Positions 2,625-44,774 of a DNA stretch of 46,878 nucleotides are shown piece after piece. Position numbers and translations under genes: made by a program. The stretch covers positions 1 to 46,878 of IMG/VR virus record IMGVR_UViG_3300009182_000096; one strand, 5' to 3'. Under the pieces are notes generated by a model, which did not search any database, was not told the DNA's origin, and was given only the letters and a program-made list of their open reading frames with translations. Origin of the DNA: a virus. Position 1 is the first letter of the stretch. Every line of letters starts with the position of its first letter.

Positions 2625-5600
2625 ATGAGTAACTTAAGCGATTCAAAATTAGTATCAGGAAGAACGCCTGCTATAGGGTATAGTTACAGAAAAACACCTA
2701 TTAGCGGCGATTTATCGACATTACTACCACCTGCAGCCTATGAGGGTTCTTGGGCATACTATGATAATGATATGTACCTTTCCGATGGTACAACTTGGAA
2801 AACGCCAGCACCTCCTATTATACGTACTCCGTCACCAATTACACCAGATCCAAATAAATTAATAACTAAAAGGCAACTAGTTATTACTGGATACGTATCT
2901 ACTGTTGTTGGATTGCTACAAACTGGTGCAAAATTTCAAATTAGTTTGACCAGAGAATTCACTAATCCTGTAACATTTATAGTAGATGCTACAGCTACAC
3001 CTGCAGGTAGTTTTATTATTGGACAAAGTTATACTATATCTAGTTTAGGAACAACTAACTGGAGTCAAGTTACTGGCAAGAACAAAACTTGGGTTGAAGG
3101 CGATAGGTTTACAGCTGTTACTATAGGTTCGGGTAATGGAATTGCTACTTTTAATCCTAATTCATATACCATACTACCAAATGAACCCGACATAGCACTA
3201 ACTCCAGGAACAGTTTTTTATTGGCGCGGCAAGTACATGGCTGAAAATGCCCAAGAGTCTGCTTGGTGTTCTATAACTGCTCAAACTTTTCCCTACTATA
3301 TAGAAAAACCAAAAATAGTTACAAGTGCTGGTCTAAGAACTTCAAAATTACAAATATCAAGATACGAAACGGCATTTAGTCTTCCAGGAGAGGTTACATA
3401 TGCTAATACTATTTGGTACTTATATTATAGTATTAATGGATCTCCAAATAATGTTATAAGAACTACTGATAATGTTATACCTAAATTAGATACAGTTGAG
3501 TATCTTACTAAAGGTTCTACTTACTACTGGAAAGCTGAGCACAGCGGATTTTTAAATAATAAAACAGTATCGTCTCCTTCTACCGATATTCAACAACAAC
3601 TAGAAGTACTGGATATAGCAACACCAGAAATAGTAAGTAAAATAGGTGCAGTATTAACAGAACTAGAAGTAACGCCTTTTGATAGTTCTGCTAAACCTCC
3701 TGAACAACTAGCCGAAGTTATATGGGAATTCTATACTAGTCCTGATTTAGCTGATTATATTAGAAATTATACACTTAGCTATAATGCGCTTACAATGACC
3801 TATGCATCAGCAGCTAAACTAAGTGTAACAGCATTAACATTTTTAGAGGAAGAAGTAATATATTACTGGAGAGTTAGATATAAAACTGTAAGTGGAAAAT
3901 ATTCAGAATATAGTAGTTTACAACCAGTAGCATTTATTAAAGCTTCCTTAATAAATACTCCAGTATTAAGTGGTGAAATTACACCAGGAACAGTATTAGA
4001 TAAATTTTTATTAACAGGATTTGTAAGTGCTTATAGTTTAACTTTTATACAAACTAACTATGAAATATACAGTAATTCAACTGTATCTGCACAAAACTTA
4101 CTATATTCGCAAGCTGTGGGAAGTGATACAACTGGATTTATTTTAGCAGGAGTTAGTCAAACGCTTAGAAGGGGTCAACTATACTACTGGAGAGCGCGAT
4201 ATAGTGGAAGAATAGGTGGCGTAGGTGCTACCCCAACCACTAGTAAATGGACTGAGTTATACGCATACATACAGCCAGATTCGATTGCTAAACCTAATTT
4301 AAGTATTGCTTCTACTTTAAATAGTTCGGGATTATTGGAATCACCTAGTATTAAACTTGCTAGTACACCATTTGAAAAAATAAATCCTGACTCTAATGAA
4401 GCCCACATATCTAGTGATTGGCAAATATATGTAAGTGGAGTTTCAGGCATATATGATTCATCTATTAGTGATACAAAAAATTTAACTACTTATACTAACT
4501 ATAATTTAGAAGAATCAAAAACTTATACTGCCAGAGTTAGATATACTGGTATAAGTGGTGATAGTTCTGACTGGAGTAATAGTGTAACCTTTCAAACTAT
4601 TAATCAATTTAGAAATGTTATACCTCAACCAAACAAAAATCCTGTAAATGAGAGTGGTGGAACTTTAAAGTACAGAGACTATTCAAGTGTTTTTGGAGGT
4701 TTTTATGCTGCAGATATGTGGCAGTGGGCTATTCAAACACGTACAACAGATAATATTACTATTACTCAAACTATAGACTTAGTAGATAAAAGTGTAGGTG
4801 GTCCAGCATCTACAAATACTCAATATAAATTTGATTTTGCAATAACAGATCAATACGATAAACTCTATCAACAAGATATACAGCCTTTGTTTTATATAGG
4901 TCAAAAAGTAAGTGTCAGATTAAAAAGTGACACTACCAAAACCCTAGAAGGATATATTGTAAAAGCTTATGGTAGTAGAATAAGTGTTGGTGTATTTAAA
5001 ACTGTTAATATTAGTGCACGTTCAATTTTAACGGGCGGATTTCATGTATTAGTAGGTTATAGGTTAATATTAGGCGATAGAAATATACAACAAAGACAAC
5101 AATATTTTGATTGGTATGATTCCGGCAGAACTTATGCTAGTATTACAGGTAATAGTTACTATAATAATAGTGCTGGTTTTAATGGTGCTACAGGTCTTGG
5201 TGCATTACCTATGCCTTTTGAGTGTTTTAGTACTACAGAAGGATATAGAATTACAAAAGCATTAGCTACAATGAATCAAGGCAAAGCCTGGGAGCGTGCA
5301 GCGTGGGCCGCATATACATTAAATTATAATGGTAAAAGTGATTGGTACATACCTGCAAGAGATGAATTAGTAGCAATATTCTATTATTGTCATAACTATA
5401 CTGTAAGTACGGTTTCAAGTACTGCTTGGAACTATAAACCTTGGGGATATATACAAAATAGTAGCTCTAATAGTAACTATATCAAATCAACTCCTGTATA
5501 TACAGGCCCTGGAGGTGGCAGTAGTAGATATAGTCTTGTACATAATACATTTACTGGATTTGGAGAAAAACCAGATACTCCTACAGATTTTTGGGGTTTA

Positions 5601-5969
5601 AATAGAAATTCATATGTTGAACAACTAGAATATAATTCTCCAGGCTGGGTACTTCAACCACGACTTACTGATAGTAGAGGATATCTTTCACCAGTAACGG
5701 ATTCTGGTTATGGTTGGAGCCAAAGACTTTTAACATCAACTTTGTATAGTAATGACTTATTTAGTGACTCAAATGACAGAGCAACCTATGAAAGAAATCC
5801 ATTTACCCCAAAAATCACTGACAACGGCATCCGACTGAATACTTATTCAGATCTTAGACTACCTTATATGAACATAGGTACTACTAGTACCTATCCAGGT
5901 CTTATGGAAACAACCAGTGCAACTGGAACTAGTGGTGGTTATAGGCTTATTAGAAGGGAACTAATATGA
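2625..5969 (+). CDS. Large tail-associated adhesin with Fn3-like repeats and DUF1566-like C-terminal region
   Basis: The protein has 1114 residues. Residues about 80-640 contain repeated beta-sandwich-like units marked by Y-Y-W-R/K-x-R/E-Y and YSEYS/SDWSNS-type strands, the usual signature of fibronectin-III-like modules. Around residues 850-1000, the segment with GKSDWYIPARDELVAIF resembles the DWRLPTxxEL core of DUF1566/Lcl-like domains found in surface and phage adhesion proteins. There is no signal peptide. It follows immediately after the stop of the upstream gene and overlaps the next by 4 bases. A role as a tail fibre or tip adhesin that contacts the host is inferred from domains and location. 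Confidence 0.7.
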   Translation: MSNLSDSKLVSGRTPAIGYSYRKTPISGDLSTLLPPAAYEGSWAYYDNDMYLSDGTTWKTPAPPIIRTPSPITPDPNKLITKRQLVITGYVSTVVGLLQTGAKFQISLTREFTNPVTFIVDATATPAGSFIIGQSYTISSLGTTNWSQVTGKNKTWVEGDRFTAVTIGSGNGIATFNPNSYTILPNEPDIALTPGTVFYWRGKYMAENAQESAWCSITAQTFPYYIEKPKIVTSAGLRTSKLQISRYETAFSLPGEVTYANTIWYLYYSINGSPNNVIRTTDNVIPKLDTVEYLTKGSTYYWKAEHSGFLNNKTVSSPSTDIQQQLEVLDIATPEIVSKIGAVLTELEVTPFDSSAKPPEQLAEVIWEFYTSPDLADYIRNYTLSYNALTMTYASAAKLSVTALTFLEEEVIYYWRVRYKTVSGKYSEYSSLQPVAFIKASLINTPVLSGEITPGTVLDKFLLTGFVSAYSLTFIQTNYEIYSNSTVSAQNLLYSQAVGSDTTGFILAGVSQTLRRGQLYYWRARYSGRIGGVGATPTTSKWTELYAYIQPDSIAKPNLSIASTLNSSGLLESPSIKLASTPFEKINPDSNEAHISSDWQIYVSGVSGIYDSSISDTKNLTTYTNYNLEESKTYTARVRYTGISGDSSDWSNSVTFQTINQFRNVIPQPNKNPVNESGGTLKYRDYSSVFGGFYAADMWQWAIQTRTTDNITITQTIDLVDKSVGGPASTNTQYKFDFAITDQYDKLYQQDIQPLFYIGQKVSVRLKSDTTKTLEGYIVKAYGSRISVGVFKTVNISARSILTGGFHVLVGYRLILGDRNIQQRQQYFDWYDSGRTYASITGNSYYNNSAGFNGATGLGALPMPFECFSTTEGYRITKALATMNQGKAWERAAWAAYTLNYNGKSDWYIPARDELVAIFYYCHNYTVSTVSSTAWNYKPWGYIQNSSSNSNYIKSTPVYTGPGGGSSRYSLVHNTFTGFGEKPDTPTDFWGLNRNSYVEQLEYNSPGWVLQPRLTDSRGYLSPVTDSGYGWSQRLLTSTLYSNDLFSDSNDRATYERNPFTPKITDNGIRLNTYSDLRLPYMNIGTTSTYPGLMETTSATGTSGGYRLIRRELI

Positions 5970-6529
5970 AATATATAAAATATACTTTCGTAGACAAAAA
6001 CACAGGAATAAATGTATTTAGTAAACTTTCTACAGATCCAGTTATTTTACCTAGCATAGAAGGGCTTGAGTTTGTGTGGGCAAAAACTTCCTTGTATCCA
6101 ACATTAACTCCTGAATTTTTTGGAACTTGCCCAGATAGCTCTAATACTGATATTGAAGGTGTATTAGAGGTAATGACAGAAGAGTCGTGGAATAACGCCA
6201 GAGTTTTAGAGAATAATGCTAGTTTTATTTGTCCCCCAACAATAAGTGCTAAAAATTTAAGGTTAGGATTTTTAAAGTATAATATATTGGACAGTGTAGA
6301 ACAAACAGTAAAACTTTTGCCAAAAAATCTTCAAATAGAGTGGCAGTATGCCACCACTTTTTATAGAAACAGTGATTTAATAAGGGAATTAGGTACTAGA
6401 CTAGATATAATTACAGATAAATATATGTACATTAATGAAGAAGGTTTAGACGCAGAATATCCAGAAGAAGAACAACCAAGTATAATACATAAAATTTTTA
6501 CAGAAGGCATTGAGGTATCAGAAATATGA
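5966..6529 (+). CDS. Hypothetical protein after adhesin
   Basis: This 187-residue soluble protein overlaps the adhesin stop by ATGA and itself overlaps the following heme-oxygenase-like gene by ATGA. I recognise no domain. It has a mixed alpha/beta look with an acidic C-terminus (EEGLDAEYPEEEQ). Its place directly after a long adhesin would fit a fibre chaperone or tail accessory protein, but nothing in the sequence proves it. Confidence 0.6.
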   Translation: MKYIKYTFVDKNTGINVFSKLSTDPVILPSIEGLEFVWAKTSLYPTLTPEFFGTCPDSSNTDIEGVLEVMTEESWNNARVLENNASFICPPTISAKNLRLGFLKYNILDSVEQTVKLLPKNLQIEWQYATTFYRNSDLIRELGTRLDIITDKYMYINEEGLDAEYPEEEQPSIIHKIFTEGIEVSEI

Positions 6530-7044
6530 TGAACACAGAATTATGGAATGCAACCAGAGACCTACACCATGCCTGTGAGCAACACCCAGTTGGCGGAGTA
6601 ATGGCAGTAGGTAAACCTCCAGTAATTTGGTATCGTGCATGGTTACAAGTATTACTACAACTTCATGAAGTTGTAGACCAACATTTACCAGATACAGTAC
6701 ACAGAGTAAATCGTATTAAAGCGGATATTAAAATACTCAATATTGATATAAAACCAATTAAAGCCGCAGAAACGTATGCAAATACATTAACTAATCAAAC
6801 AGCAATAACAGGTGCTGCCTATGTATTAACAGGCGCACATTTAATGGGGGGTGAAATAATGCGTAGACGTTTAGAGGATTTTCCTACAGAACATCTATCT
6901 TGGGATGATCGTAAAGAAGCGCTTAAATGTTTAACTGTATTACGAGAATCTCCTGATGTTATAAAACCTGCTCGTGATTGTTTTAAAGCCCTATTGGACT
7001 CAATGGATGAAATTGTTCAGCAATACCCTCAAGAATCTGTGTAA
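6526..7044 (+). CDS. Heme oxygenase-like protein
   Basis: This 172-residue, nearly all-helical protein opens with LWNATRDLHHACE, matching the start of biliverdin-producing heme oxygenases (L-x-x-AT-x-x-x-H-x-x-x-E). H14 is placed like the proximal heme ligand. Near residues 97-112, GAAYVLTGAHLMGGEIMRRRL resembles the distal helix with its Gly-rich kink and following Arg-Arg. Length is slightly below the usual 190-220. Enzymes of this family open heme to biliverdin, CO and iron. The gene sits inside the tail operon (ATGA overlap with the gene before), which is odd for a metabolic enzyme; a structural use of the fold is possible. Heme-oxygenase fold is likely, catalysis unproven. Confidence 0.6.
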   Translation: MMNTELWNATRDLHHACEQHPVGGVMAVGKPPVIWYRAWLQVLLQLHEVVDQHLPDTVHRVNRIKADIKILNIDIKPIKAAETYANTLTNQTAITGAAYVLTGAHLMGGEIMRRRLEDFPTEHLSWDDRKEALKCLTVLRESPDVIKPARDCFKALLDSMDEIVQQYPQESV

Positions 7045-7150
7045 TCAATTTTTATTAGATTTAGTAGTAGGTTTGGCATTAATAGGTGGTTATTACCACT
7101 TTGATGATAAACCCAGAGCAGATTGTACCAAAGCAAAAGAAAATGGCTAA
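7007..7150 (+). CDS. Small single-TM protein (47 aa)
   Basis: ATG at 7007 lies inside the 3' end of the heme-oxygenase-like gene in another frame. The ORF encodes 47 residues with one hydrophobic stretch (LLDLVVGLALIGGYY, about residues 20-34) followed by a polar tail ending KAKENG. Its stop at 7148-7150 lies just before the terminator, which is the normal position of the last gene of an operon. The Shine-Dalgarno is weak (GGA about 8 bases upstream). Function unknown; a small membrane protein is the only safe reading. Confidence 0.5.
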   Translation: MKLFSNTLKNLCNQFLLDLVVGLALIGGYYHFDDKPRADCTKAKENG

Positions 7151-7152
7151 AT

Positions 7153-7186
7153 AAAAAATACCAACCTTAGGGTTGGTATTTTTTTA
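7153..7186 (+). terminator. Rho-independent terminator ending the adhesin operon
   Basis: Inverted repeat AATACCAACC / GGTTGGTATT with a TTAG loop, followed by a run of T. It lies 3 bases after the 47-aa ORF and immediately before the strong promoter at 7189. Confidence 0.9.
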
Positions 7187-7188
7187 TG

Positions 7189-7217
7189 TTGACATACCTT
7201 TGCTTAGATGGTATAAT
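7189..7217 (+). promoter_or_regulatory. Consensus sigma-70 promoter of the fibre/lysis operon
   Basis: TTGACA at 7189-7194, a 17-base spacer, and TATAAT at 7212-7217: a 12/12 match to the host vegetative promoter. About 100 bases of leader follow before the ATG at 7325; the leader is very AT-rich and I see no clear structure in it. Confidence 0.9.
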
Positions 7218-7661: not shown

Positions 7662-8246
7662 ATGGTAACACCAATTAAGTTAAATATAAAAATATACCAA
7701 GGCAGTACTTTTAGTAAATTATTTCGCTGGGAATCAAATATTAAAGGGTATAATCAAATTACTGCTATAAGTAAAACTGCACCTATGGTAGTAACTGCGC
7801 CAGCTCACGGGATACCCGTAGGTTGGCGTACAAAATTAACCAATATTGTTGGCATGAAAGAGGTAGCAAATTTAGACTATATTACTCCTTCAGCAGTAAC
7901 CACAGATACACTAACTTTTAATTCAATAAATAGTGCAAGCTACAGTACTTATACTGGTAGCGGCGTACTAGAGTATAATCGACCTGTTGATTTAACTGGT
8001 ATTACTGCGCGTATGCAAATCAGAGAAAAAATTACCAGCAGTAATTTTATAGTAGAATTAACTACAGAAAATGGTTTAATACAAGTGGATAATACACTAA
8101 AAACTATTACTTTTACTATTCCTGCTGCAACTACTCAAGCATTTACATTTAAACAGGCAGTGTATAGTTTAGAGTTAGTAAAAAGTTCAGTGGTTATACC
8201 TTTTGCAAATGGAACTGTATCTTTAGTACAAGAAGTTACAAGATAA
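7662..8246 (+). CDS. Ig-like fibre-attachment / baseplate-type structural protein
   Basis: The 194 residues begin with an YQGSTFSKLFRWES segment. Further conserved pieces are PVDLTGITARMQIR, a T-x-N-G-L-I strand and VYSLELV near the C-terminus, ending VQEVTR. This pattern is typical of a widespread phage protein that precedes collagen-like fibres and resembles the N-terminal Ig-like domain of BppU-type baseplate upper proteins. An insertion of about 60 residues (29-90) separates the two halves. It is followed 9 bases later by the collagen-like fibre, consistent with a connector role. Confidence 0.65.
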   Translation: MVTPIKLNIKIYQGSTFSKLFRWESNIKGYNQITAISKTAPMVVTAPAHGIPVGWRTKLTNIVGMKEVANLDYITPSAVTTDTLTFNSINSASYSTYTGSGVLEYNRPVDLTGITARMQIREKITSSNFIVELTTENGLIQVDNTLKTITFTIPAATTQAFTFKQAVYSLELVKSSVVIPFANGTVSLVQEVTR

Positions 8247-12439: not shown

Positions 12440-12699
12440 TAGTTTACACAAGAATTTACAATGGATTTGTAAATACTACAGCTGAACAACCATATACTGG
12501 TAATACAGAAGAAGACTACTGGATTGAACACGATGATTCTATAGTATATCTTATTGGTCATCCATACTCTAAACCAAAAGAAATAAAAGCTACAAACTGG
12601 GGCGTTACTACTATGGATAATCAACCAATAAATTATCAAACCGCTACTAATGATAACGAAATACGTGATCACGTAGCTGCTATTGCTGAGCCATTATGA
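12436..12699 (+). CDS. Hypothetical protein (87 aa)
   Basis: ATG 12436 is chosen because it forms the ATGA overlap used throughout this operon; an earlier in-frame ATG at 12406 would sit deep in the previous gene. The 87-residue product is soluble, with aromatic and acidic residues (EEDYWIEHDD). It resembles no family I recognise. It overlaps the 2OG oxygenase gene by 4 bases, so it may be a partner of that enzyme or of the fibres. Confidence 0.6.
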   Translation: MIVYTRIYNGFVNTTAEQPYTGNTEEDYWIEHDDSIVYLIGHPYSKPKEIKATNWGVTTMDNQPINYQTATNDNEIRDHVAAIAEPL

Positions 12700-13262
12700 A
12701 TGATAACGTGGTAACTATTATACCTAATTTTATTACCCAAGAGGAGTGCAATATACTTAATACTTGGGTAAAAAAAGCCATAGAAAACAAATGGTTGGAT
12801 TCAGGAATAACCACTGGTGGAAAGGTTGGGTATAATGGAAGACTAACTACTAGACTTTATGCGGATAGATTTGATAGTTATTGTAGTTTAGCATATAAAA
12901 TACAAGAACGTATACGTAAACAATTGAGTTTAAATATTGAACCTATAAGTATATTGGGCGGAGGTAAGCATGGTATTGTAGTAAGTAATACACTACCAGG
13001 TGGAGATGTTTACTACCATAGTGATCCGCTTGAAATGGGTGGTTGTCACGTACTTCGTTGTAATATTATAACACAAATGGCGGATAGTGGTGCTGTACTA
13101 ACGGTTAATAATAATACAATAAATGTTGGTCAAGGCGACCTGCACTGCTATTTAGCAAGTAAATATAAACATAGTGTTACTACAGTAACAGGAACCAGTT
13201 CGCGAATATTGTGGATGTTTGGCTTCCAAATTAAAGATACAGAATGGGAAAATAAATGTTAA
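12696..13262 (+). CDS. 2OG-Fe(II) dioxygenase, prolyl-hydroxylase-like
   Basis: The 188 residues have an N-terminal FITQEECNILNTWV segment typical of phage and prolyl-4-hydroxylase-like oxygenases. The iron site is complete: H108-S-D110 in YYHSDP and H159 in KYKHSV, with R170 (SSRILWMFGF) placed to hold the 2-oxoglutarate carboxylate. Such enzymes hydroxylate protein side chains or other substrates using O2 and 2-oxoglutarate. It sits between fibre genes and next to a cupin, overlapping both neighbours. Hydroxylation of the collagen-like fibres is an attractive but unproven substrate assignment. Confidence 0.85.
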   Translation: MNDNVVTIIPNFITQEECNILNTWVKKAIENKWLDSGITTGGKVGYNGRLTTRLYADRFDSYCSLAYKIQERIRKQLSLNIEPISILGGGKHGIVVSNTLPGGDVYYHSDPLEMGGCHVLRCNIITQMADSGAVLTVNNNTINVGQGDLHCYLASKYKHSVTTVTGTSSRILWMFGFQIKDTEWENKC

Positions 13263-13624
13263 ATCAAGATATTATTTTAGTAAGTAATTTGTGGGTAAAA
13301 CAAATGCATTTTGAAAATCCAGGCGATAAAATGCAAGGTCATTCGCACAAATTTGATCATCCTACACTAGTTGCCACAGGATCAGTAAAAGTAACTGTAG
13401 AAGGTATTTCAACAGTTTTTCGTGCACCACATATTATTTTTATTGCAAAAGATAAAGTGCATGAAATTGAAGCAATTGAGCCAGGTACAGTTGCTTACTG
13501 TATACATCCCATTCGTGGAGAAAAACAAGAAGATATTTATGATCACAGCCAAATTCCTGCAGGAATTCAATATCCTAAAAATATTTTAAATAATTTGGAC
13601 ACTGTAGCAAAGGAGCCTGAATAA
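13256..13624 (+). CDS. Small cupin-domain protein
   Basis: The 122-residue single cupin shows a first motif GDKMQGHSHKFDHP with H29 and H31 as likely metal ligands, the conserved Gly-Ser strand ATGSVKVTVEG, and a second motif around KVHEIEAIEPGTVAYCIHP. Length fits a one-domain metal-binding cupin. It starts inside the 2OG oxygenase gene and ends against the start of the glycine-rich fibre. It could be a lone enzyme or a helper of the oxygenase; the substrate is unknown. Confidence 0.8.
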   Translation: MLNQDIILVSNLWVKQMHFENPGDKMQGHSHKFDHPTLVATGSVKVTVEGISTVFRAPHIIFIAKDKVHEIEAIEPGTVAYCIHPIRGEKQEDIYDHSQIPAGIQYPKNILNNLDTVAKEPE

Positions 13625-18829: not shown

Positions 18830-19621
18830 ATGGCAGAAACATATACGCCCACAGAGGGCATGGCAAGTGCAGCCAAACGAGCACTACAATGGCACGCAGA
18901 TGGTAAACCTGGCGGTACACTAGTGGGATTGGCTCGCGCTAATCAACTAAAAAATCGTGAACCGCTAACTGCTTCAACTGTACTTCGTATGCACTCATTT
19001 TTTAGCCGACATGAAGTTGATAAACAAGCTACTGGATTTTCAAGCGGTGAAGAAGGTTTTCCTAGTAAAGGCAGAGTAGCTTGGGACTTATGGGGCGGAG
19101 ATGGTGGTCAAACTTGGGCTGCACAAAAACGTGATCATATTATGAATCAACGTGAAAATAAGAGTTTAAATATGGATCAAACAATGACAGAATTTCAAAA
19201 AACAATCTTAGCAGCTTTTGCTACTGAGTTTAGCTTTTACCTAAAAGCAGCTAATTTTCACTGGAACGTTGAGTCACGTGATTTTTATGAGTATCACTTA
19301 CTATTTGAACGTATTTATACCGAAGTATACGAATCAATTGATGGTTTTGCAGAAAATGTTCGTACACTAGATTTATTTGTACCAGCAGGTTTAGAGCAAT
19401 TAGCTGAGTATTCACTAATTGAGGATAGCATAGCGCCCATAGACACGGATACTATGGTTAATACATTACTAATGGATAACGGTACAGTAATTGATGTATT
19501 AAATTCAGCATATAATATGTGTGGTTTATACACAGAATTTGGTTTTCAAAATTTCTTAGCAGATCGTATTACTGCACACAAATCACACAACTGGATGTTA
19601 AAAGCCAGTCAAAAGTTTTGA
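18830..19621 (+). CDS. Two-domain protein: capsid-associated-type N-domain plus Dps/ferritin-like domain
   Basis: The protein has 263 residues. Residues 1-105 match a small domain known from phage structural/protease-linked proteins (MASAAKRALQWHADGKPGGT, SFFSRHEVDKQA, GRVAWDLWGGDGG). Residues 120-263 are Dps-like: H144 in NFHWNV, H156, D171 and E175 have exactly the 12-15-4 spacing of the Dps ferroxidase ligands. Such sites oxidise Fe(II) with peroxide or O2, and Dps also binds DNA. It has its own promoter and ends at a bidirectional terminator. Fusion of a virion-linked domain to Dps suggests packaging or protection of DNA, which is inference. Confidence 0.8.
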   Translation: MAETYTPTEGMASAAKRALQWHADGKPGGTLVGLARANQLKNREPLTASTVLRMHSFFSRHEVDKQATGFSSGEEGFPSKGRVAWDLWGGDGGQTWAAQKRDHIMNQRENKSLNMDQTMTEFQKTILAAFATEFSFYLKAANFHWNVESRDFYEYHLLFERIYTEVYESIDGFAENVRTLDLFVPAGLEQLAEYSLIEDSIAPIDTDTMVNTLLMDNGTVIDVLNSAYNMCGLYTEFGFQNFLADRITAHKSHNWMLKASQKF

Positions 19622-19727: not shown

Positions 19728-20189
19728 CTATGCTACTTTCATTTTTGAGTAAAGTAACCATCCATGTTTACGGTGTTGATCCATGCGTTCACTTAAAAAA
19801 TTAGCTAAACCAAATTCTTCTAATTCTTCCGCCATTTTGTAAGTAGTTACTAAATCTGTATTTACTTTACCATTAGCTAAATAAAGCGCAGAATTCATTT
19901 CTTCAGCTGTAGGCCACATTCCTGCATACTTAGGGTCTGTGTCTACACTTGATAGTTCCATTAAATTTGTAAACTTTGATGGAACATATGCTCGCACACT
20001 TCTTACATGGTCTGCAAAAGGTTCAAGACTTTTATCTACTTCTTTATAAATATTACCAAATAAGTCAAAGTATATTAAATTACTGTTACTTTCAAAGTTC
20101 CAGTGATAACATTGAGCCAGTAACAAAAATCCATAAGTTGTTGCAAAAGATTTTCTGGTCCAAGCTTGTAAGTCTGTTAAAGTTGCCAT
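19728..20189 (-). CDS. Dps-like protein with altered ferroxidase ligands
   Basis: The 153-residue all-helical protein is related to the C-terminal domain of the neighbouring plus-strand gene: CYHWNFES matches NFHWNVES, and both end in a NFL-(S/A)-(E/D)-R-(M/I) plus HGWLL/HNWML segment. At the four ferroxidase positions it has H29, F41, E56 and D60 instead of His-His-Asp-Glu. One His is therefore lost and the acids are swapped, so normal iron oxidation is doubtful. AAGGAG lies 7 bases before the ATG. It is preceded by a terminator, so expression probably comes from read-through of the gene before. Confidence 0.75.
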   Translation of the reverse strand: MATLTDLQAWTRKSFATTYGFLLLAQCYHWNFESNSNLIYFDLFGNIYKEVDKSLEPFADHVRSVRAYVPSKFTNLMELSSVDTDPKYAGMWPTAEEMNSALYLANGKVNTDLVTTYKMAEELEEFGLANFLSERMDQHRKHGWLLYSKMKVA

Positions 20190-43325: not shown

Positions 43326-44774
43326 TTAAATATAACTATTGCCTATAAATAATCCATCTAGTTTATGTTTAAGATTTATAGCATATTCTGGTGTAGCTAT
43401 TGGAAATCCATTAACATTTAGTGAAGTATTTAAAACTATAGAAGAACCTGTTAATTTTTTTACTTCAAGTAATAGTTCTGAAAACAACCCATCTACTACT
43501 GTTTGAGGCCTAGTGGTTCCGTCTACGTGAGTTATAGATTTAAGAGATGAATCAGATACATTAACACTGTATAACATATATGGGCTATAAAAATTACAGT
43601 CCATGTGTTTATTTGTATCTTCTAATAGAATGCTGCACCCAAAAGGCCTATAGTGTTCTCGATGTTTTACTTTAGTATTTATTATGTCTTTTCCATCTAC
43701 CAGATCTGCTCTCATTAATATAGAGCGATTGCCTAAAGCTCTTGCACCTATTTCACCTTTACCCTGGCACCAACCAATTATTTTACCATTAGCAATCATT
43801 TCTGCTGCTTTTTTAATTACTGTTTTTGATGGCAGCTCTTTAACTTCATCTTGTTGCCAGTAAGGAAATCCAGTATTAATAAAAGGTTCTTGTTGATATA
43901 TTTGTCTTAGTAACTCTACTAGACCTAATGATATTCCGTCGTCTCCACAATGAGGTGGAATAACAATATTATTATTCCACTGTTTTAACTGAGAGTTAAT
44001 TAGTATATTATGTGCTACTCCACCTGAGTAAGAAATATATTCACTATTTAAAGCTAAATACTTAAAAAAGTCATTAATTATTTTTTCACTAATAAAATGC
44101 CTATTTCTTAACCAATCGTGACAGGGTTCTGTTGGGGGATTTGAAAATAATTTTTCTATTTGTGTTATATTTAGATTTTCAAGTTGCTTTATAAGACAGA
44201 GGTCAATTTTTCCATATGACTGATATGCCATTAACTTGCCCGCATGGTCGGTTCTATGGCCCTCTAGATTCCAATGTTGCCCAAGAATTCTAAGCGCCCT
44301 ACCTAAAGACATTACTTCTGGTAATCTATATTTTTTTAATACAATTCCCTGATTATCAAAAACTGAAATAGTTTCGTAATCCTGCTTTTCAGAAGAGGAG
44401 CTTACACCAGCTCCATCTAATACAAATTTTTTAGTAACTAAATTATAATTTTCTAAAGGAAAACAACTTAATGCGTGACTATAATGGTGATTTACGCTGT
44501 AAGTAGCGCAGTTAAATACTGTTTGTTTTAATAAGTGATATTGTTTTTCTTCGGCATCTGTCAAATTAAACTGACCTGATATTGCTACAGCGTCTAGTTT
44601 GTTTATATCTATACCAAAATTTTTTAAATCATTTAGTAATTCAGTAGTAATACCGTAGTAAGCGTGATGTTTTATCTGTTTAAATCTTTCAGATTTAAAA
44701 TACCTTATATTTTTACCGCTTGTAAAGGTAAAATTAGAATCATGTGTACCAGTATGTATTCCTAAAAAATTCAT
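43326..44774 (-). CDS. NodU/TobZ-family carbamoyltransferase
   Basis: The 482-residue two-domain protein belongs to the TsaD-related carbamoyltransferase family. The N-domain starts FLGIHTGTHDSN, has the metal-binding VNHHYSHALSCF and KFVLDGAG. It continues to EYISYSGGVAHNILIN and PPHCGDDGISLG. The C-terminal YrdC-like domain shows GEIGARALGNRSILMRA, HREHYRPFGCSIL and IVLNTSLNVNG. The family uses carbamoyl phosphate and ATP to carbamoylate a hydroxyl group. It lies alone between tRNA-Asp and tRNA-Val. Possible targets are modified phage DNA bases or a nucleotide; none is shown here. Confidence 0.93.
   Translation of the reverse strand: MNFLGIHTGTHDSNFTFTSGKNIRYFKSERFKQIKHHAYYGITTELLNDLKNFGIDINKLDAVAISGQFNLTDAEEKQYHLLKQTVFNCATYSVNHHYSHALSCFPLENYNLVTKKFVLDGAGVSSSSEKQDYETISVFDNQGIVLKKYRLPEVMSLGRALRILGQHWNLEGHRTDHAGKLMAYQSYGKIDLCLIKQLENLNITQIEKLFSNPPTEPCHDWLRNRHFISEKIINDFFKYLALNSEYISYSGGVAHNILINSQLKQWNNNIVIPPHCGDDGISLGLVELLRQIYQQEPFINTGFPYWQQDEVKELPSKTVIKKAAEMIANGKIIGWCQGKGEIGARALGNRSILMRADLVDGKDIINTKVKHREHYRPFGCSILLEDTNKHMDCNFYSPYMLYSVNVSDSSLKSITHVDGTTRPQTVVDGLFSELLLEVKKLTGSSIVLNTSLNVNGFPIATPEYAINLKHKLDGLFIGNSYI

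Follow-up and report, generated by a model that had tools for sequence, protein, structure and literature searches.

The DNA analysed here, which we call the window, is the whole stretch of 46,878 bases of an uncultivated virus record. Five genes follow each other on its + strand in the 5' to 3' direction: a 672-aa protein (79–2097), a 175-aa protein (2097–2624), a large fibre/adhesin-like protein of 1114 aa (2625–5969), a protein of 187 aa (5966–6529) and a 172-aa protein resembling heme oxygenase (HO) at 6526–7044. The first belongs to neighbour cluster c2; this member matches no family, and another c2 member matches the tail fibre family phrog_17885. The second (neighbour cluster c3) has no family match. 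The 1114-aa protein contains an Ig-like domain (PF25788) and an Lcl_C match below the cut-off, with no PHROG match at E ≤ 0.001; we infer that it has a fibre role. The 187-aa protein matches phrog_6034 and phrog_10241, both families of unknown function, and a Foldseek search of the PDB with its AlphaFold2 model (5 sequences, pLDDT 79.9, pTM 0.53) found nothing similar at E ≤ 0.001. Its stop codon contains the start of the HO-like gene in an ATGA overlap; translational coupling to virion proteins had been proposed in a preliminary description of this DNA. A possible Shine-Dalgarno sequence, GAGG, can be read on the + strand at 6512–6515, 10 nt 5' of the ATG.

The 3' end of the HO-like gene is overlapped out of frame by a small ORF of 58 aa (6974–7150, +), which has a GTG start and one hydrophobic stretch. 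By a crude rule seven of the 59 loci, the window not being one of them, have a hydrophobic small ORF at this end. About 110 nt past the HO stop, at 7153–7184 (+), there is a hairpin similar to an intrinsic terminator, with a 14-bp stem, a 4-nt loop and a U tract. It was found by folding positions 7145–7195 (MFE −17.6 kcal/mol, z −4.67) and is absent from the listing of a separate terminator scan. Directly after it comes a perfect sigma-70 consensus, TTGACA-17-TATAAT (7189–7217, +), the only one in the window; by chance the mean expected number is 0.11, and at least one was present in 8 of 100 shuffles. It probably starts the next transcription unit. Given the strong hairpin and the consensus just after it, transcription of the fibre unit probably ends with the HO-like gene as its last cistron. 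The next tail-type gene is found at 7662–8246 (+); it matches phrog_1084, of unknown function (1.4e-20), and the L-shaped tail fibre assembly family phrog_15373 (1.2e-4). Further on, at 12696–13624, there are two successive small fibre-region genes, the second with a weak cupin-type match (AraC_binding, 3.5e-4, just under the cut-off). The DNA polymerase of the window shares about 49% identity with the enzyme of Salmonella phages with genomes of 106–118 kb, which we take to be T5-like; from this identity T5 is probably a distant relative of the phage.

The relation of the protein to HO is weak when the window alone is considered and becomes clear, beyond chance, when the family is sampled more widely. 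An HMM search against HO families had been named as a check in the preliminary description. With PF01126 the window protein scores 15.8 bits (E 0.012), below the gathering cut-off of 23. A search of the PDB with this single sequence found no HO, only two chance matches, and a profile built from the 42 nearest members reached HO-1 only at E 0.18, which is not significant. Among 42 members, window included, PF01126 is matched by 31 at E ≤ 0.1, with a best value of 2.9e-6, and three of ten relatives tested exceed the cut-off of 23 (L019 with 24.7, L196 with 23.5 and L201 with 24.3). In a Pfam search 23 of 32 diverse members gave a match at E ≤ 1, which we count as sequence homology to HO. A profile made from 32 diverse members ranked HO-2/HO-1 chains first (E 1.3e-4), and of its 21 matches the top 17 were all HO chains. 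When the family profile was compared with a profile of 21 canonical phage HOs, the probability was 94% and E 1.1e-7.

The AlphaFold2 model, built from 42 sequences, has an HO fold with pLDDT 95.0 and pTM 0.91. All 50 of the matches listed by Foldseek against the PDB are HOs or HO fusions. VIA-align places rat HO-1 first among solved structures (Z 18.7, rmsd 2.7, 169 residues). Among the matches listed by this method 49 of 50 are HO structures (wild type, mutants and fusions, Z 18.7 to 13.2); the other one is the HO-like protein 3dde (Z 13.4). Other folds are missing from the VIA listing, and we have not counted this as their exclusion. The product of 6526–7044 is thus predicted to have an HO-superfamily fold over its whole domain. 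The preliminary description had proposed an HO-like gene at this place, to be abandoned if the predicted fold were of another type; the open reading frame is present and AlphaFold2, Foldseek and VIA-align all give HO. With HO-1/HO-2 and HmuO (PF01126) the protein shares the fold of the whole chain, the proximal His, the heme-contact residues and the Gly-Gly of the distal helix. It differs from them in its length, 172 aa where most of the listed HO chains have about 205–222 residues, in its identity of only 12–19% in structural alignment, and in the positions of Asp140, Tyr58, Arg136 and His132, which are His, His, Leu and Ala.

The conservation of these residues was studied in 63 distinct full-length proteins; L113 and proteins shorter than 140 aa were left out. 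The HO copy of L113 (L113:8001–8484) is interrupted, either by a change of frame or by an error in assembly. The equivalence to HO-1 was taken from the matches of the 32-member profile and from the profile-profile alignment with canonical phage HOs. All 63 proteins have His14 (His25 in HO-1; codon 6565–6567), Glu18 (Glu29), Tyr99 (Tyr134), Gly108-Gly109 (Gly143/Gly144), Arg140 (Arg183) and Phe153 (Phe207). In HO-1, Glu29, Gly139, Gly144 and Phe207 also have roles. The proximal His motif, TRDLHHACE, is intact as first described. The Gly-rich distal helix, described as intact too, is present as YVLTGAHLMGG and is not canonical: the position of Asp140 is a His (His105, codon 6838–6840) and that of Gly139 an Ala (Ala104) in 63/63 proteins. 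Around it the position of Tyr58 is His in 60 proteins (His47 in the window) and Gln in three; that of Arg136 is Leu in 58, Thr in 4 and Ile in 1 (Leu101 in the window); that of His132 is Ala in 57 (Ala97 in the window); and Glu62 is replaced by Asp51 in all 63, a conservative change. PMC5623701 describes roles for His25, Ala28, Tyr58, Glu62, His132, Tyr134, Arg136, Asp140, Gly143, Arg183 and Asn210, and calls His132 invariant in HOs. The porphyrin contacts Tyr134, Arg183 and Gly143 are kept in the family, while the distal residues Tyr58, Arg136 and Asp140, together with His132, are not. With the fold and the heme contacts of HO and a different distal network, we consider the protein a relative in the HO superfamily and not a canonical HO; it probably works like HO.

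From PMC5623701 we picked 11 pocket positions; Tyr114 and Pro170 are unmapped. Of the 23 invariant columns of A2, eight correspond to one of the 11 (chance 6e-6), and of the 19 columns without variation in the 63-protein set, six do (chance 4e-4); when Tyr137 and Tyr182 are added the figures are 8/13 (4e-5) and 6/13 (1e-3), and in all these cases the columns are not independent. The patterns used in the search contained parts of both motifs, so we also checked proteins found by a single motif. Those found only by the N-terminal pattern keep the distal residues in 5/5 cases, and those found only by the distal pattern keep His14, Glu18 and His20 in 9/9. Conservation of the pocket is not only a search bias. 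Four other residues, His20, Trp39, Asp67 and His123 in window numbering, are also invariant in 63/63 proteins; we know of no HO counterpart for them, and it is possible that they form a second site or contact the heme propionates.

The change in the oxygen-activating network (Asp140 to His, Tyr58 to His) raises the chance of another heme-based activity, either peroxidase-like or as a heme carrier or a gas/heme sensor. His105 in all 63 proteins points to a selected role, and D140A converts human HO-1 into a peroxidase (PMC5623701). The equivalents of Tyr134, Arg183 and Gly143/144 are kept in the family as for an HO-type placement of heme, which argues the other way. Distal networks of other kinds serve some HOs of Gram-negative bacteria, another point against such an activity, which we regard as possible, with a modest chance of being right. 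It is very unlikely that the protein is an HO-like enzyme with a non-heme metal, of the thiaminase/TenA or diiron oxidase type, which would use His47-x3-Asp51 and other residues. This pair of candidate ligands is present. His20, Asp51, His105 and His123 are invariant and His47 nearly so, and the Tyr58 position is that of an iron ligand in RNR and MMOH (PMC5623701). Several features are against it: the proximal His14 is invariant, the Pfam matches of the 42 and 32 members include no TenA or haem_oxygenas_2, VIA ranks HOs first, and three of 63 proteins have Gln in place of His47.

The family is mainly viral and phage-borne, as far as our scans reached. Three scans of IMG/VR found 60, 128 and 146 stretches which encode relatives; 60, 80 and 80 loci were kept, largely from the same contigs. 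In prokaryote genomes one scan found three loci in 84,980 genomes and an earlier one found none; both depend on two peptide patterns. The three loci include Roseovarius (L131) and Aliiroseovarius (L132), while the third (L133) is too short to place. Neither the window protein (E ≤ 0.01) nor a divergent member (E ≤ 0.1) has a match in 50,697 named phage records. Among the matches listed in our literature search, which mostly lacked subscription journals, we found no description of this family. Phage HO as such is already known, and the family is a variant of it; what is new is a mainly phage-borne clade with a rewired pocket and a recurrent position in late operons.

Of 59 distinct loci, 42 have a tail-type gene belonging to one of five clusters within 3 kb of the HO gene; under the strict set of three clusters (c2, c5 and c10), whose representatives match PHROGs tail families, the number is 20. 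The other two clusters were counted as tail-type, c1 from the sequence of its fibre-type members (Mtd_N and collagen matches) and c21 from the Ig-like protein of the window. The remaining 17 loci have no five-cluster tail gene within 3 kb: 11 of the 59 belong to a second context (clusters c4, c7 and c14–c16), L111 and L116 through one c4 gene each, and six to neither. In nine second-context loci (L025, L029, L033, L071, L078, L082, L083, L086 and L088) the HO gene is near phrog_11311. The second context also has a gene which by eye resembles an L,D-transpeptidase, and in some cases a Dps-like gene. The start of HO overlaps the upstream gene by −4 or −1 in 28 of 65 distinct loci, with the starts set by us as the nearest ATG; seven loci have no upstream ORF nearby. 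Among the 52 upstream proteins scanned, which exclude L131, L205, L110, L113 and repeated C-terminal ends, seven match a tail assembly chaperone and seven Mtd_N; endosialidase chaperone and collagen are matched by three each and DUF285 by two, and other families by one each. An endolysin-type gene follows HO in some loci.

The phages are of several types. T4 gp23 was detected in 5 of 23 records tested; one carrier is L094, whose HO protein is the same as that of L091. An internal virion protein cluster (phrog_511) is found in contigs of other relatives. In Aliiroseovarius there is a baseplate set like that of RcGTA (PF09931, NlpC/P60 and GTA_TIM), and HO lies between a DUF285-repeat gene and a DUF4376 gene on one side and the baseplate hub gene on the other. 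The 221-aa gene before HO in L132 was considered as similar to RcGTA g12 and rejected, as Pfam shows DUF4376. In both L131 and L132 a large repeat protein precedes HO inside an RcGTA-like tail module; the DUF285 repeats were identified by Pfam in L132 and by eye in L131. The position of HO beside fibre genes is genuine and is seen again in phages of several types.

The preliminary description had suggested, as one of two alternatives, that an HO fold was recruited into the tail. The protein would then be a structural or assembly part, such as a fibre chaperone with an HO fold or a component of the tail tip, with or without heme. The tail-type genes within 3 kb in 42 of 59 loci (20 with three clusters) and the start-stop overlaps in 28 of 65 are in its favour, as is the Aliiroseovarius hub gene adjoining HO, which is probably a relative of the RcGTA hub, a protein with an iron-sulfur cluster according to PMC7296036. 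However the upstream partners are mostly unrelated among themselves, 17 of 59 loci have no five-cluster tail gene within 3 kb, and the heme pocket is among the most conserved parts of the protein. The canonical HO of phage P-SSM2 is also near fibres, so that this proximity is not special to the family. The divergence of the genes is also against it. Between the window and L062, L063, L064 and L065 the dN values of HO are 0.107, 0.128, 0.192 and 0.279. Those of the coupled gene are 0.548, 0.272, 0.606 and 0.587, and those of the fibre 0.763, 0.488, 0.831 and 0.667; selection ratios are rough since dS is high and in one case saturated. In these four relatives HO diverges more slowly than its tail neighbours and not in step with either of them: it is more constrained. 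A chaperone or tail part is expected to track a fast-changing partner and an enzyme with a fixed small substrate is not, which disfavours a role in the tail. The recurrent position has thus been borne out, without codivergence with the fibre or the coupled gene, and we consider a tail part unlikely.

The other alternative was an auxiliary metabolic gene, either for iron release or for bilin synthesis. HO is the first step in bilin synthesis, and the gene could in principle resemble the hemO-pcyA/X cassette that PMC11480375 describes for phages of marine and fresh waters. Bilin reductase (PF05996) is absent from the 50 relative contigs and from the window, all of them fragments. In a control made of 28 of 69 loci with canonical phage HO (contigs of at least 10 kb, also fragments) it is present in four over the cut-off and in five at E ≤ 0.001; the Fisher p for 4/28 against 0/50 is 0.014. 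A role in bilin pigments is thus highly improbable, and release of iron is the part of this proposal which we retain as the best reading, with the heme-contact residues invariant and the gene more constrained than its neighbours. The [2Fe-2S] ferredoxin PF00111 is not found in 50 records (the window and 49 contigs), so electrons would have to come from the host. Two ferritin/Dps-like proteins (PF00210) are found in the window at 18830–19621 (+, 1.4e-13), where the match covers only residues 128–259 of 263, and at 19728–20189 (−, 1.6e-7). Such genes are found in only 4 of 50 relative contigs, so we do not use them as an argument for the family.

We also considered iron-loaded fibres, with HO feeding iron to HxH motifs; the idea came from the HxH motifs of T4 gp37. 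It was dropped, as there is no HxH in nine tail-region proteins of the window. The 42 large upstream proteins contain 21 HxH where 12.0 would be expected; one L131 frame, which is probably not the real gene, accounts for 11 (expected 7.1).

We favour, with somewhat better than even confidence, a late heme-binding enzyme of the HO superfamily, predicted from sequence and model, which as the last fibre-operon cistron would release iron from host heme. The protein would be soluble and made late together with the tail fibres. It would bind host heme through His14 and oxidise it with electrons from a host reductase, giving ferrous iron, an open-chain product and CO; His105, His47 and Asp51 would replace the canonical network of Asp140, Tyr58 and Glu62 on the distal side. 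The iron freed would serve infection, and in the window the two Dps/ferritin-like proteins could hold it. A fibre locus would simply be the usual place for late auxiliary genes and not the sign of a structural role. The rewired distal residues, the Pfam score below the cut-off, the failure of the near-member profile to reach HO significantly, the lack of ferredoxin, the rarity of ferritin and the invariant His20, Trp39 and His123, for which we know no HO counterpart, count against iron release. In order of likelihood we place iron release from heme first, another heme-based activity second and a tail role third. A combination of these features, a heme-binding family with a new distal pocket whose place of action is the tail, made together with the fibres and either carried or required by the tail, seems to us quite improbable. 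While the phage enters, such a protein might deal with heme or iron at the envelope, or it might supply iron to tail parts which contain metal; phages in which it recurs would be T4-like, T5-like, podovirus-like and RcGTA-like.

Phage HOs in the papers and named records examined are tied to the metabolism of tetrapyrroles or photosynthetic pigments. HO of the cyanophage type is found in 20 named phage records. In P-SSM2 (PSSM2_291 and its relatives) the gene is phage-encoded and near fibres as in the window, lying between psbA and tail fibre genes, whereas in P-HM1 it is found by psbA/psbD and hli genes, not near fibres. The P-SSM2 protein differs from that of the window by its canonical distal motif GDLSGG, its length of 233 aa and its score of 249.9 bits with PF01126; the two proteins match pairwise at E 0.004 only. 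According to PMC11480375, vHemO is likewise an HO of aquatic phages proposed as an auxiliary metabolic gene, found with bilin reductase and ALA synthase in hemO-pcyA/X-valaS cassettes. It differs from our family by this tetrapyrrole cassette, as no bilin reductase was found here. The family we describe is found in diverse phage types, keeps the heme contacts and has the oxygen-activating residues replaced. Should it prove to degrade heme, the late auxiliary functions of phages would include iron release more widely; should it act on heme in another way, it would offer a natural experiment on changes of activity within the HO fold.

The closest viral models in BFVD are two proteins of uncultured Caudovirales, A0A6J5KN38 and A0A6J5RJ96 (TM 0.87 and 0.83 by query). 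With identities of 18% and 17% they belong to another family or to a distant branch. They are named haem oxygenase-like and heme oxygenase, so that other viral HO-like proteins are already present in databases. The window also contains a carbamoyltransferase gene at 43326–44774 (−; PF16861, 3.3e-44), possibly involved in the modification of DNA or sugars.
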